64,000 nucleotides of DNA, taken from NCBI GenBank assembly GCA_020072645.1, contig JAIQGK010000003.1:62001-126000 (forward strand). Direction: 5' to 3'. Shown here piece by piece: positions 58,564 through 63,983 of the stretch. Origin of the DNA: Terriglobia bacterium. GTDB taxonomy: Bacteria; Acidobacteriota; Terriglobia; Terriglobales; Acidobacteriaceae. The notes beneath the pieces are model-generated. The model was not told where the DNA came from. It saw only the letters and a program-made list of their open reading frames with translations, and ran no database searches. Positions within the stretch are counted from its first letter, which is position 1. Each line of letters begins with the position of its first letter. A program made the position numbers and the translations under genes.

Positions 58564-59139
58564 TCACGCCCTGGCCACAAATTCCCGCGTCTCCGTGGAC
58601 ACCTTTACCTTCTCACCCTCTTTAATAAAAAGAGGCACTCGGATTTCCAGCCCGGTTTCCAGCGTCGCGGGCTTGGTCACGTTGCCGCCGGATGAATCCC
58701 CGCGCACGCCCGGCTCCGTCTGGGCAATCGTCAACTCCACATGCGGAGGCAGTTGCAGGCCAATGGGATTGCCGTTGAACTTATGCACCTGGATAATGAG
58801 GCCTTCGCCAAGAAAATCCTGCGCGTCGCCAATCATCTCTTGTGACAGCGTAAGGGTCTCAAAGCTCTCCTGATCCATAAAGTAATATCCGTCCGCGTCG
58901 CTATATAATAAAGATGCCGGGACCATCTCCAGGTCGGGTTCCTTGAATTTGTCACTGGCTTTGAAGGTCTTGTCAAAAACGGCGCGGGTCAGCAGGTTGC
59001 GCATCTTTATGCGGACAAGCGTCTGCCCGCCGCGGGCGGTTGGCGTGTTCACCTCCACGTCAAGGCAGTGGAAGGGCGTTCCGTCCAGTTCAAAAAACAT
59101 TTTGCGCTTGATGTCAATGGCATCAATCAGTGCGGCCAT
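58564..59139 (-). CDS. efp: elongation factor P, EfpL/YeiP-like loop
   Basis: This 191-residue translation factor relieves ribosomes stalled at proline-rich motifs. It has three beta-barrel domains. The loop that reaches the peptidyl-transferase centre reads TPTARGGQTLVRIK. It lacks the lysine that EpmA modifies in classical EF-P. Instead it matches the SARGAATLYK type loop of E. coli YeiP/EfpL, with arginine at the tip. No epmA, epmB or earP gene is seen nearby. A truncated second copy lies about 650 bp upstream of its start. Confidence 0.92.
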   Translation of the reverse strand: MAALIDAIDIKRKMFFELDGTPFHCLDVEVNTPTARGGQTLVRIKMRNLLTRAVFDKTFKASDKFKEPDLEMVPASLLYSDADGYYFMDQESFETLTLSQEMIGDAQDFLGEGLIIQVHKFNGNPIGLQLPPHVELTIAQTEPGVRGDSSGGNVTKPATLETGLEIRVPLFIKEGEKVKVSTETREFVARA

Positions 59140-59244
59140 GGGTTCCTTTTGGGCGATGGTGAATAGCGATCAACGAACCTTCTAGCATATCAGCGTAGTA
59201 AATCAGACGTATTCAGGCTGGAACTGACCTCTATCCGGCTTCGG

Positions 59245-59479: not shown

Positions 59480-59485
59480 TATAAT
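59480..59485 (+). promoter_or_regulatory. -10-like element of the cysteine-peptide gene
   Basis: TATAAT lies 34 bases before the start codon at 59519. The -35 region at standard spacing is poor. AAGGAAAGGAG follows as a strong ribosome-binding site. Confidence 0.45.
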
Positions 59486-59518
59486 CGCCTGCTAGAAAGT
59501 CAAGGAAAGGAGCATTCC

Positions 59519-59716
59519 ATGGAAAACAATCGCGTACTAAGCCGGGTTGGCGCCCGCCTTCTAACTGAAGAGGACATGGAGCAGGTCGCCGCCGGATTCA
59601 AAATCGGCAGGTCCTTTGGCAGCTTCAATACCGGACCTTGCAACTTTGATCCCGTAACCTGCAGAGTCATCAGTGGAGACTGCAGTGACGTTCCGCCAGC
59701 CTGCCTCGGCGAGTAG
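59519..59716 (+). CDS. RiPP-like precursor peptide with four heptad-spaced cysteines
   Basis: The 65-residue peptide has a leader-like N-terminus, RVGARLLTEEDMEQVAAG, that resembles double-glycine-type bacteriocin leaders (acidic helix ending in a small-residue pair, A25-G26). The C-terminal part has cysteines at 41, 48, 55 and 62, each exactly seven apart (C-x6-C-x6-C-x6-C), with several D, P, V and G residues between. The gene has its own -10 element, strong ribosome-binding site and terminator. No peptidase-ABC transporter or modifying enzyme is nearby. Natural product, secreted signal or metal-binding peptide are all possible. Confidence 0.7.
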   Translation: MENNRVLSRVGARLLTEEDMEQVAAGFKIGRSFGSFNTGPCNFDPVTCRVISGDCSDVPPACLGE

Positions 59717-59742: not shown

Positions 59743-59767
59743 AAAAAGGCCCGGTCAGGGCCTTTTT
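59743..59767. terminator. intrinsic terminator of the cysteine-peptide gene
   Basis: AAAAAGGCCC and GGGCCTTTTT pair perfectly over ten bases with a five-base loop, giving a T run on both strands. It follows the peptide gene stop by 27 bases and also flanks the efp relic on the minus strand. Confidence 0.85.
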
Positions 59768-59789: not shown

Positions 59790-59973
59790 TAAAGTGGAAA
59801 ACGATTCCGGAGTCGCTGGCGGGACTTGGGGTTGCGCATCTTGATGCGACCAGAGTCTGGCCGCCACGGGCGGTTGGAGTATTCGCCTCAACGTCAAGGC
59901 AGTGGAAGGGCGTGCCTTCCAGTTCGAAAAACATTTTGCGCTTGATGTCAATGGCATTGATCAGGGCGGCCAT
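59790..59973 (-). pseudogene. truncated efp copy
   Basis: From ATG 59973 the frame encodes MAALINAIDIKRKMFFELEG and continues through FHCLDVEANTPTARGGQTLV, almost identical to the first 42 residues of the intact EF-P at 58564-59139. A frameshift follows near 59848; the correct reading resumes in another frame (RIKMRN) and similarity then ends. About 60 bp upstream of the start is also similar to the DNA before intact efp, so a promoter-proximal segment was copied. Confidence 0.8.
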
Positions 59974-60112
59974 GGATTCGTTCGGAGTGTGCTGAATGGC
60001 GATCAACTCTTCTCCAATAGCAAGATAGCGGATCAGTTTGGAAAACTGACCAGCTACTTGTATCCGCCAAGACAACGAGCCGGACTTCGCAAGCCCTCGA
60101 CCAGGGCAAGAG

Positions 60113-61180
60113 CTAGTCGCTAGGAAGTACCGGTGCCCCGGGGCTGCTCTTTGGCAACGCGGGCTGTTTGATGTAATCGAACGGAATTTGGCCAGTCAGG
60201 GCGCCAAACCAGGTCACAATTGATTTTACTTCTGCATCTGAGAGATGGCTTCCGCGCTGGTGCACAGACATGCGCCGAATTGCCTCCTCAAGCGTAGCAA
60301 CCGATCCGTCATGGAAATACGGTGCAGTTTTTGTGATGTTTCGCAGCGAAGGCACCTTGAAGACCAATTTATCGGCATCCTGCTTCGTTATCTTGTGACG
60401 TCCCAGGTCAGACTCATTCGGCCATGGTTCAACAATCCCCAGTTTCTGAAAACTGTTACCGCCAACGTATGCGCCGTTGTGGCATGAGGGGCAGCCTGCA
60501 TCCACGAACTTGTTGAATCCTCTCTTTTCAGCTCTGGTAAGAGCAGAATTGTCTCCGGTCAAAAAGCGGTCCCATCGTGATGGAGTGACCAGACCACGCT
60601 CGAATGCGCCAATTGCGAGTGCCATGTTATTGAAAGTGACGGGAGACTTCTCCTTCGGAAACGCTTGCCGGAACAACGCCACATACTCCGGCATTGATTC
60701 CAGCGTCCTGACGGCAGCAGCATCGGAAGGCATTGCCATCTCAGCCGGGTTCAAGACCGGGCCCTTGGCCTGCTCTTCGACGTCGGGTGCGCGACCATCC
60801 CAGAACTGCACAAAGTGCCCTGCAGCGTTATAAACCGTGGGAGCGTTGCGATTTCCTTTCTGGCCCTTATGGCCGGTTGAAACTGGTTCTGGCTCCGCAC
60901 CATACGCATCCAGCGCATGACACGTATTGCACGAAATATCCTGCCCTGCTGACAAGCGCGTTTCGTAATACAGCATCCTGCCAAGTTTCACCTTTGCATC
61001 GGTGACAGGATTGTCAGGCGAATCCATAACCGAGGGAAGCGGACGGAACAGCTTCAACGCCACGGTATTTACCTGGACATCGGACACCTGGGCCGAAAGA
61101 TAAATCGCCGAGGACACAACGACGATGAAAAGGAGGACCGCAAAAACATGCTTGAAAGCGCGCACACTGTGATTTGACAT
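60113..61180 (-). CDS. di-haem cytochrome c peroxidase (MauG/CCP family)
   Basis: This 355-residue periplasmic enzyme has an N-terminal hydrophobic signal and two haem motifs: CNTCH in the first third and CPSCH in the second half. Family blocks LGRMLYYETRLSAGQDISC and VPSLRNITKTAPYFHDG are present. It reduces hydrogen peroxide with electrons from a small cytochrome c or carries out MauG-like oxidation. ATG 61180 gives the normal length; an in-frame start 39 bases upstream adds an unlikely arginine-rich stretch. A CRP-like site lies 76 bp upstream. Confidence 0.9.
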   Translation of the reverse strand: MSNHSVRAFKHVFAVLLFIVVVSSAIYLSAQVSDVQVNTVALKLFRPLPSVMDSPDNPVTDAKVKLGRMLYYETRLSAGQDISCNTCHALDAYGAEPEPVSTGHKGQKGNRNAPTVYNAAGHFVQFWDGRAPDVEEQAKGPVLNPAEMAMPSDAAAVRTLESMPEYVALFRQAFPKEKSPVTFNNMALAIGAFERGLVTPSRWDRFLTGDNSALTRAEKRGFNKFVDAGCPSCHNGAYVGGNSFQKLGIVEPWPNESDLGRHKITKQDADKLVFKVPSLRNITKTAPYFHDGSVATLEEAIRRMSVHQRGSHLSDAEVKSIVTWFGALTGQIPFDYIKQPALPKSSPGAPVLPSD

Positions 61181-61255
61181 ATCGATCTCACTTCTTCCCC
61201 GCCCGGCGCGAGGGACCACTTACGCCAAACGTTAGCAAGCAGCGGCCCGGAGCGC

Positions 61256-61271
61256 AGTGATGCCAGTCACA
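61256..61271. promoter_or_regulatory. CRP/FNR-family-like operator upstream of the peroxidase
   Basis: AGTGA-TGCCAG-TCACA matches the CRP core at 9 of 10 positions. It overlaps a second dyad, TCACAGG-CA-CCTGTGA (61267-61282). It is the same type as the two sites before the cytochrome c gene at 24722. Confidence 0.55.
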
Positions 61272-61475
61272 GGCACCTGTGATTCTTCAGCCCCGGAAAA
61301 GCGTGAGAAAGAGGATTGAGCGGCGCAAGCGCGGCACAGGAACTTTTTTGCGCGCTCCGCTGCTTTTCGTCCCAGCAAACAAAAACCGGGCTTCCACCCA
61401 ATACGCGAAAACCGCGCGTCTTGTGGGACCCCGGCCTGTGGTGTAAGGAAGAATCGTTTTCAAGACGAGCAAATT

Positions 61476-63983
61476 TTATGCTTCCAGGCTCTCACCGGTA
61501 GGTTCTTCGCCATGTTCCCCGGATGAGGAATTTTGTGACGATTCTCCACTGAGAAGCTTAACCTTATGGTTCAGCCAATCGCTGATGATCTGTATCTGCT
61601 GAGCACTAAGCCTCGAATTCTCGGTCAATTTCTCGATATCAGTGGGCTCACGCGAAAACCATTTCACGATGACCTCCATAATGGGTGCTCGCTCTTCGAG
61701 TTTAAGGCGCTTGAATGCATTGAAGGCGACTTCCTGACCGCTAACTTGGCACAGAGTCTCAGCTGCAGCTGCAGCTAAAGCAAACAAGCCAAAAAGAGCG
61801 TCTGCATTCAGAGGCACAAAATCCACCTTTACCTCCGGTTCGCGGTACGTGCCGCGGCCCCAGCTTTTTATTAGGCGGGCATAAGATGCCGAGTTGGCCC
61901 AAGGCAGCGGCGCGGCGCTGAGAGCGCTTCCAATTTGAGATAGGTCTTCGACCTCATCAGAGAATAAACTGCGACACAGCTCTCGATCATATTCTGTAAA
62001 ATGGAACAATATTCGCTGTCCTAACGCGGTGTAATAGCATTGCCGAAAGCTTGAAGGCTGTTCCTCGAAAATGGCTCCTACTCCGTGGTCCCTTAGCATG
62101 TATACCAAGTCCATGTATCCGATCATGTAGGCAGCTCTCGCGATAAAGGCGTACTTCATTGCAAGTTCGCGAATTTTGGGCGCGCAGATGCGAAATACTT
62201 TCAGGCGGAATGCTCTCCAGTATTCTTCGACTTCCGCCCTTGCTGCATTTGTATGTGGTCGATGGTCCCTGGGAATGAGGGTTGCACGCCGATAGCTAGC
62301 CACAATCCGAAATAGGGCTTCGCATCCTATTGCTGCTTGAACCTCGTTTTGACCACTGATTGTTTGAACGAACAAATTCAAGAGCGCTTCTGCGATGCTC
62401 TCGCGTGCCGCAATTTGGGCGCGCATGAGGTTACCGAAAAGAAATTCTAGCGGATCCTCTTCACTAGACTTCAACTCAGGTAAGGGCGGGGCTGACAATA
62501 ACTGAGAGCGCACGGCTAAATAGATATCGAAAGCCGCATTGGTCAGTGCTTGAGCGATGTCTGGAGCTACACGGATAAACTCGAGACATCGTGCTGCAAA
62601 CGATATCGTGTTAACGCGCTCTGGGCTCGGCCCGGCGCCGAACATTATCAAAGCTTTCATTAGAGCATCAGCAGCGCCCTCGGTCTCCCGACTCTGAATG
62701 TGAAATGCCAGTTGCGCTACCATGTCCCACTCACGTTTGGTGATCTTGGGTAAAAGCACGCCGAGGAGATCAGCTGGCCTAGGATTCGTTCTAAACAGGA
62801 ATAGGGCCGTAAAATATTCAAGAAAAGTTCGATGGGTGAACTGATATAGACTATCGCCCGACTCTGAGGTTCCTGTATCCGTAAATATCCAGGCTCGGCC
62901 CTTCGAAAACTCAATAAACTCTTCCGCGGTGGCACGGGCCTTTTCACTTGTGGCGAAGCGCGAGCGGAGATAGTCTGCTGCCTTCCCGACCAGTTGATTC
63001 CCTGTAACACCACCCTGAAGCTTCTTGTCCGCATATATCCAATGAGCAAGATACGCCATCAAGGGACTAAGATCATCTTCATAGCTGAAGGTAGTCTTGA
63101 TGCGCCTGCTGCGATCCCAACGTTCAAACAGCATCATTGCACATTTCTTGTATACTTCGGGCCGGTTAGCCGGTATGAAATTTTCTTCGCGATAGATGCT
63201 GCACATAAGGCCCAACATCAATGGATTTGAACGAAGATCCGGTACGCTCTGGCTCTCTTGCAAAAAAGCGAGTGCAAGTTCCTTCTTTTCTCGCTCATCG
63301 AGATTGTCATCGACTAAGAACCACTTCTGAACATAATCTTCAACCTGCTCGTCCCCGAACTCGTTGAGTTTAAACGCATCAAAGCGCTGTGGATCAAGCG
63401 GTGCTTGCTCATATCCAATCTGCCTAGATGTCACCAAGGTAGGTGCCGATGGATAAAGATTACAAAAGGCCTCAACTGCATCTCTAACCTCTTGACGTTG
63501 AGCTGTTTCCAGAAGCTCATCAATCCCATCGAAAATCACCATCGCCCGTCCATTCCTTAGCATATATTCGAGTGCAAAGGGCGGTGGGTTGAGTTGATAT
63601 ATGGCATTGCATTTGGAAATCATGAACTGAATGATTGAGCTTCCACGGTCGCGTTGGTCAACCCCGAAATCGCGAAGAACGACGACGATGGGCGTAACTT
63701 GGCGACCCTGGAATCTGGAAGTGGTTGAAAAATCGAAAACCAGTTTACTTGCAAAAGTGGTCTTCCCGCCTCCTGGATTGCCAAGGATCACGGCTCGGTG
63801 CATTCGATCAAGAAGATCCTCGGTCTCTAAACTAAGCTGAAAGCCACCCTCATAGTCGGTGGAGAATGTAGGATCGACATATAATTCAGCTATAGGGAAT
63901 CGCTTGTTGCGTTCAAAATTTGGGGGACTGATGAGATGAAAGCGTTCAGCAACCTGCGCGCGGTATTTCTCCTCGAATTCCAT
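61476..63983 (-). CDS. NACHT-family STAND NTPase, possibly N-terminally incomplete
   Basis: This large NTPase has Walker A GNPGGGKT (residues 68-75) and Walker B VIFDGIDEL (149-157). NACHT-type helical segments follow, including SNPLMLGLMCSIY, and a long helical C-terminal region of about 450 residues without clear repeats. Bacterial NACHT proteins often defend against phages. The frame is open to the window's right edge, the ATG at 63983 has no ribosome-binding site, and the part before the NTPase is only about 65 residues. An N-terminal effector domain may therefore lie outside. Lower GC than nearby genes hints at transfer. Confidence 0.82.
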   Translation of the reverse strand: MEFEEKYRAQVAERFHLISPPNFERNKRFPIAELYVDPTFSTDYEGGFQLSLETEDLLDRMHRAVILGNPGGGKTTFASKLVFDFSTTSRFQGRQVTPIVVVLRDFGVDQRDRGSSIIQFMISKCNAIYQLNPPPFALEYMLRNGRAMVIFDGIDELLETAQRQEVRDAVEAFCNLYPSAPTLVTSRQIGYEQAPLDPQRFDAFKLNEFGDEQVEDYVQKWFLVDDNLDEREKKELALAFLQESQSVPDLRSNPLMLGLMCSIYREENFIPANRPEVYKKCAMMLFERWDRSRRIKTTFSYEDDLSPLMAYLAHWIYADKKLQGGVTGNQLVGKAADYLRSRFATSEKARATAEEFIEFSKGRAWIFTDTGTSESGDSLYQFTHRTFLEYFTALFLFRTNPRPADLLGVLLPKITKREWDMVAQLAFHIQSRETEGAADALMKALIMFGAGPSPERVNTISFAARCLEFIRVAPDIAQALTNAAFDIYLAVRSQLLSAPPLPELKSSEEDPLEFLFGNLMRAQIAARESIAEALLNLFVQTISGQNEVQAAIGCEALFRIVASYRRATLIPRDHRPHTNAARAEVEEYWRAFRLKVFRICAPKIRELAMKYAFIARAAYMIGYMDLVYMLRDHGVGAIFEEQPSSFRQCYYTALGQRILFHFTEYDRELCRSLFSDEVEDLSQIGSALSAAPLPWANSASYARLIKSWGRGTYREPEVKVDFVPLNADALFGLFALAAAAAETLCQVSGQEVAFNAFKRLKLEERAPIMEVIVKWFSREPTDIEKLTENSRLSAQQIQIISDWLNHKVKLLSGESSQNSSSGEHGEEPTGESLEA

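Follow-up and report, generated by a model that had tools for sequence, protein, structure and literature searches.

Positions 59519–59716 of the window (the whole 64,000-nucleotide stretch of DNA analysed here) hold, on the forward strand, a single 65-residue open reading frame whose cysteines at 41, 48, 55 and 62 lie exactly seven residues apart. What kind of peptide does this gene encode, and what would mature it? Translation agrees with the product described in an earlier sequence-only reading of this DNA, and the AAG at residues 24–26 matches the leader end that had been placed near A25-G26. Four or more cysteines occur in 146 of the window's 533 open reading frames of at least 40 residues, and the precursor is the only one to have four that are evenly spaced. 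The naive chance of exact even spacing for four cysteines in a 39-residue core is 234/82251 = 0.0028, a value computed post hoc with the pattern already seen. The peptide was assigned no family by Pfam, NCBIfam or PHROGs, had no match in phage and plasmid collections, and matched the PDB at chance level only (best E 0.24).

The gene had been credited with its own TATAAT, ribosome-binding site and perfect terminator. A TATAAT, an AAAGGAG and a hairpin are indeed present (Table 1), but the promoter scan found no sigma-70-type −35/−10 pair and no −35 partner for the TATAAT, and the hairpin is only terminator-like. The hairpin is absent from the list returned by the terminator scan; we suspect that this is because the stem takes in its T run.

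Table 1. Features of the precursor locus (positions in the window) and contig locations of the leader family in the own genome.
Feature	Position	Strand	Basis
Elongation factor P (EF-P) paralogue, divergent from precursor	58564..59139	-	PF09285, PF01132, PF08207
TATAAT, −10-like element	59480..59485	+	Sequence; CTTATAAT identical in 4 orthologous sequences
Shine-Dalgarno AAAGGAG	59506..59512	+	Sequence; AAAGGAGC identical in 4 orthologous sequences
Start codon ATG	59519	+	Sequence
Leader M1-G26, motif NRVLxRxGARxL...AAG (AAG, residues 24-26)	59519..59596	+	33-leader alignment; leader profile E 2.9e-13
Core, residues 27-65, with C41, C48, C55, C62	59597..59713	+	Orthologue and C7 paralogue comparison; dN/dS
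Evenly spaced Cys codons 59639-41, 59660-62, 59681-83, 59702-04	59639..59704	+	Translation; ORF count
Stop codon TAG	59714..59716	+	Sequence; translation
Terminator-like hairpin AAAAAGGCCC-GGTCA-GGGCCTTTTT, 10-bp	59743..59767	+	Folding z -2.1; orthologue comparison
Incomplete second copy of the beginning of the EF-P paralogue gene, across the precursor from it	59830..59998	-	Direct repeat 59014-59148 / 59848-59982, 88%; match to G006 EF-P gene
Ligase arrays, own genome	C2 (14 precursors), C3 at 143 kb (7), C19 (3), C10 (2)		
Stand-alone leader matches, own genome	C1, C3 at 121.5 kb (window gene), C3 at 212 kb, C5, C6, C7, C19 at 62.8 kb, C29		

A protein search of 61 genomes, comprising the own genome (G000) and 60 relatives, returned full-length relatives of the peptide from G006 (78%), G004 (71%) and G005 (66%), all congeneric. 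Selection on the frame and its cysteine spacing had been proposed, with homologues lacking the spacing and a frame not conserved in related genomes named as evidence to the contrary; the proposal stood, the frame being conserved and the spacing exact in three of three orthologues. Farther upstream than the identical stretches of Table 1 the DNA has diverged, and each of the four orthologous sequences, read by eye, retains a GC hairpin and its T run. For codons 41–65 the six sequence pairs give dN/dS values of 0, 0.15, 0.29, 0.34, 0.39 and 0.50; for codons 27–40 they range from 0.65 to 2.9, with indels. On these codon comparisons, the cysteine-bearing core of the precursor is under purifying selection. 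The leader motif RVLxRxGAR reads RVLGRAGAR, RVLGRVGAR or RVLSRVGAR in the four orthologues, and T38, D44, T47 and D54 are retained in five sequences, these four and a paralogue on contig C7. Exact C-x6 spacing as a selected pattern holds for the three orthologues but not for the paralogue, whose spacings are 6, 5 and 5, and is not essential to all relatives. An alignment of the four-cysteine sequences searched at E 0.001 against 396 genomes drawn from the phylum matched the own genome only; the draw included G007, and G004, G005 and G006 were not among its matches.

A profile built from 33 leaders, with reporting at E 0.01, matched 34 times in the own genome, 25 times in G006, nine in G001, eight in G004, three each in G005 and G008 and once each in G007 and G048 (61 genomes). 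A further match in G021, inside a 1255-aa frame, was taken as chance and rejected, and a few other weak matches may be chance too. At E 1e-4 the profile matched two of the 396 phylum-drawn genomes, both of the same genus as the own genome. By these searches the family is almost confined to a single genus of soil acidobacteria, and our search of main texts in an open-licence library found no description of it. Of the 34 own-genome matches, 26 belong to four arrays that each include a strong ATP-grasp ligase, and the other eight, the window gene included, stand alone. The leader search of acidobacterial genomes advised by the sequence-only reading yielded a leader family that is mostly encoded beside ATP-grasp ligases, and the peptidase-containing ABC transporter to be sought elsewhere is found in array C2. 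Here a HlyD-like gene (named by eye, without a Pfam or NCBIfam match) is followed by a C39-ABC exporter (C39 domain PF03412, E 6.3e-35), the precursors and an ATP-grasp ligase (TIGR04187, E 4.5e-47; MvdD model, 4.4e-38).

Two further features of the family were observed. The C3 array at 143 kb (L049:1085-2699), some 20 kb beyond the window gene, has seven precursors with cysteine-free cores beside its ATP-grasp ligase, and several of these cores end like SNPDxxLDQ. The G000 and G006 copies of a stand-alone precursor (L114:6360-6512 and L118:7475-7627) are identical in their cores (GKPQMTQLPSIPFQPDF).

Leader and ligase occur together across genomes. At E 1e-10 TIGR04187 matched 7 of the 61 genomes (G000, G001, G004, G006, G007, G008 and G048), with scores under the curated cut-off in all 61, and the leader is present in all seven, most weakly in G048 (E 5.4e-4) and G007 (5.8e-5). 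The one clear leader-only genome is G005, 81% complete and without a ligase match; on its contig C80 precursors lie next to an exporter, judged by eye, and the contig ends ~0.1 kb past the last precursor. No Pfam family was assigned to the ligases, whose relatives of solved structure are CdnC 7mgv, 5ig9, 9bou, AMdnB 7m4s, 5ig8 and 7drm. The four strong own-genome ligases (contigs C2, C3 at 142 kb, C10 and C19) occupy four branches of a 13-row tree that leaves out G048 and in which the C38 row of G001 is shortened to 323 aa. Two weaker ATP-grasp matches lie on C12 at 285 kb and C3 at 628 kb, and further C39 matches on C1 and C4. All own-genome matches to ATP-grasp, LanC-like and C39 models are outside the window, which bears out the earlier statement that it holds no maturation enzyme; the ligases and the C39-ABC exporter found in other parts of the genome agree with processing, if any, in trans. 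No ligase adjoins the precursor in the window or beside its orthologues in the four carriers, as far as the contigs reach (~0.2 kb on one side in G005, ~2.6 kb in G004). YcaO was rejected as the modifying enzyme, being found in G000 only and not in G004, G005 or G006.

We then compared the cores. Orthologues aside, the window core is nearest to that of the C7 paralogue (z 6.1, 0/300 shuffles), then to a G007 core (z 4.2, 0/300 shuffles), whose gene adjoins a ligase at the same EF-P gene, and third to a core from a G008 array (z 3.9, 1/300 shuffles). In G007 a 90% identical EF-P paralogue is divergent from a pair of precursor and ATP-grasp genes, arranged as at the window gene. The likeness of the G007 core, together with the shared EF-P arrangement beside a ligase, hints at, but does not prove, the former presence of a ligase at the window locus. 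At the G007 locus (L115:5952-9097, contig C6) the small precursor, the ATP-grasp ligase, a 136-aa protein with no Pfam match and a JmjC_2 protein lie in a row adjoining the EF-P paralogue.

The EF-P paralogue is near the precursor in G000 and G006, is on another contig in G004 and was not found in G005; in the examined stretches of G002, G004 and G008 no precursor was found at the EF-P gene. The window precursor is flanked by two copies of the EF-P gene-start stretch. All four orthologous loci have a pilT-like gene, so named by eye, on the same flank, 0.2 to about 5 kb off. Between it and the precursor the window has genes for a di-haem cytochrome c peroxidase and a NACHT-domain protein (60113–63983), neither of which matched the compared G006 stretch.

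The cysteine content of the cores is strongly patterned. Among 81 cores, 24 have no cysteine, four have one, 45 have two and eight have four; among the 47 distinct cores the numbers are 16, 2, 25 and 4, an even count in 45. One of the four single-cysteine cores belongs to a shortened frame. Eight weak rows were left out of these counts: three fragmented pieces from G006, one ORF's second match, two rows that look like chance, a G000 row without a core cysteine and a G048 row with three. One counted G006 row (L116) looks frameshifted. Most two-cysteine cores of the TLTxCT kind have their first cysteine at a fixed position while the second shifts, and three cores of this kind, one from G000 and two from G008, are missing both cysteines together. 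The window core is without the TLT residues that precede the first cysteine in the usual core. A two-cysteine core also occurs in G008, a genome (89% complete) with no LanC-like match. The even counts and the joint absence of both cysteines favour pairing of core cysteines as disulfides, although the parity is one of related sequences, not independent events, amounts to no formal test and admits odd counts. The sequence-only reading had offered cross-links, metal binding or lanthionine-type rings; parity favours disulfide cross-links, lanthionine is less favoured although an orphan LanM exists, and metal binding is without specific support.

On balance we lean towards a RiPP family of graspetide type, in which the window gene would encode a precursor that stands alone and whose product would be modified by a ligase, cut and exported by a C39 protein in trans and held by two disulfides. 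This assignment rests on the leader that it has in common with precursors encoded beside ATP-grasp ligases. Its core also has cross-linkable Ser/Thr/Lys and Asp/Glu residues (T38, D44, T47 and D54), whereas the ligase itself is not beside the window gene. Also speaking against the assignment are the loss of the TLT residues, the ligase scores under the curated cut-off, the odd cysteine counts and the EF-P genes of G002, G004 and G008, at which the examined stretches have no precursor. The family resembles graspetides of the microviridin/chryseoviridin class in that leader-core precursors lie beside MvdD/TIGR04187-type ATP-grasp ligases and a C39-ABC exporter; cores that vary beneath a common leader are likewise described in passages of Makarova et al. 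2022 (PMC8939145), as are graspetide leaders, C39 exporters and conserved cysteines in some precursors. It differs in having RVLxRxGAR in place of PFFARFL or Phhx(1,2)h, and conserved cysteine pairs in many cores, with the window precursor alone and four-cysteine. No Phhx(1,2)h motif was seen by eye in the 33-leader alignment; according to a passage of the same paper, about half of graspetide precursors have it. The string 'acidobact' does not occur in that paper's main text, and a passage in PMC13001092 assigns 99% of group 13 graspetide clusters to Actinomycetota and a few to Chloroflexi and Acidobacteria.

In the graspetide-type pathway so envisaged, one of the genome's four strong ATP-grasp ligases, all encoded outside the window, would bind the RVLxRxGAR part of the leader. 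The ligase would join the hydroxyls of T38 and T47 to the carboxyls of D44, D54 or D57, giving side-chain esters. Cleavage after G26 and export of the core would then fall to the C39-ABC exporter of array C2 and, outside the cytoplasm, the four cysteines would form two disulfides, expected as C41-C55 and C48-C62 if the two cysteines of the G007 core are the older pair. As to function, a role in competition or signalling is our guess from the peptide class. We put forward more tentatively that the whole is a hybrid RiPP system combining graspetide-type esters with one or two disulfides, in which four ligases and a shared C39 exporter would serve a genome-wide pool of ~34 precursors (26 arrayed, 8 dispersed), a second cysteine pair would give rise to new folds and orphans would outlive the ligase of their locus.

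The leader might instead serve for C39 cleavage and export only, ring formation having been lost and two disulfides holding the core. Four carriers without a ligase beside the precursor, as far as their contigs reach, would fit this, as would the disappearance of the usual TLT residues, the extra cysteine pair and the even parity. Yet the four orthologues preserve RVLxRxGAR, which goes beyond what a C39 site requires, and T38, T47, D44 and D54 are also retained; we regard such a disulfide-only peptide as unlikely, if still worth keeping in view. Rather less probable is a lanthipeptide made in trans, in which an orphan class II LanM would dehydrate Ser/Thr and thioether rings would form, for example T38-C41, S52-C55 and S56-C62. 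The own genome does encode a LanM-type protein of 979 aa (PF13575 and PF05147; L108:7837-10776, contig C12), found at E 1e-60 in only G000, G005 and G006 of the 61 genomes, that is, in three of the four carriers. LanC-like genes occur in four of four carriers versus one of five other congeners (G001; none were found in G002, G003, G007 and G008), and all four orthologous sequences retain TxxC, SxxC and Sx5C. Prochlorosin-like peptides are class II lanthipeptides processed in trans, and the likeness extends to a double-glycine-type leader, which is a class II feature, numerous precursors, cores that contain Ser/Thr and Cys, and an orphan LanM in the genome. However, peptide and LanM mismatch genome for genome, G004 having the peptide and other LanC-like genes but no 979-aa LanM (E 1e-60). 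The leader relatives adjoin ATP-grasp ligases, not LanM; in the own genome, window gene and LanM are on different contigs, that of LanM has no leader-profile match, and neither precursor nor exporter was found near it. Moreover, the C7 paralogue keeps four cysteines without the two serines before cysteines 3 and 4, and, the carriers being congeneric, shared ancestry may explain the LanM distribution. In the own LanM gene a stop codon precedes the start where the G006 frame continues. Contig C1 (L110:354-8848) has a class I lanthipeptide-like cluster with a lantibiotic dehydratase (PF04738), precursor-like short ORFs, an ABC transporter and a C39 protein; it was rejected as a leader relative, its short ORFs carrying, by eye, another leader.

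Two remaining proposals concern the cysteines themselves. The ligase could use their thiols as nucleophiles with Asp, making a native thioester graspetide: the cysteines are regularly placed among acids in the window core, and passages of PMC13097080 and PMC12291112 describe synthetases able to form thioesters with substituted residues. Thioesters do not need even cysteine counts, however, and we consider this reading very improbable. Four regularly spaced cysteines would also suit a metal-binding or thiol-active small protein that is not a RiPP, an idea to which we give scarcely any credence, since the leader belongs to a family that has an exporter and whose cores vary greatly. Cysimiditides, or type II pamtides, are tetracysteine RiPPs whose precursors likewise have four conserved cysteines, but theirs form two CXXCXGXG zinc motifs (PMC13001092, in the passages concerned) that are absent from the window peptide.

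Overall, the interpretation given by the sequence-only reading is partly supported. An orphan small gene is now tied to a large family of peptides from uncultured soil acidobacteria, in what would be a trans-processing system of one leader, several ligases and dozens of cores, with an orphan LanM as competitor. Leader homology can thereby place an orphan precursor in a pathway without a nearby enzyme.
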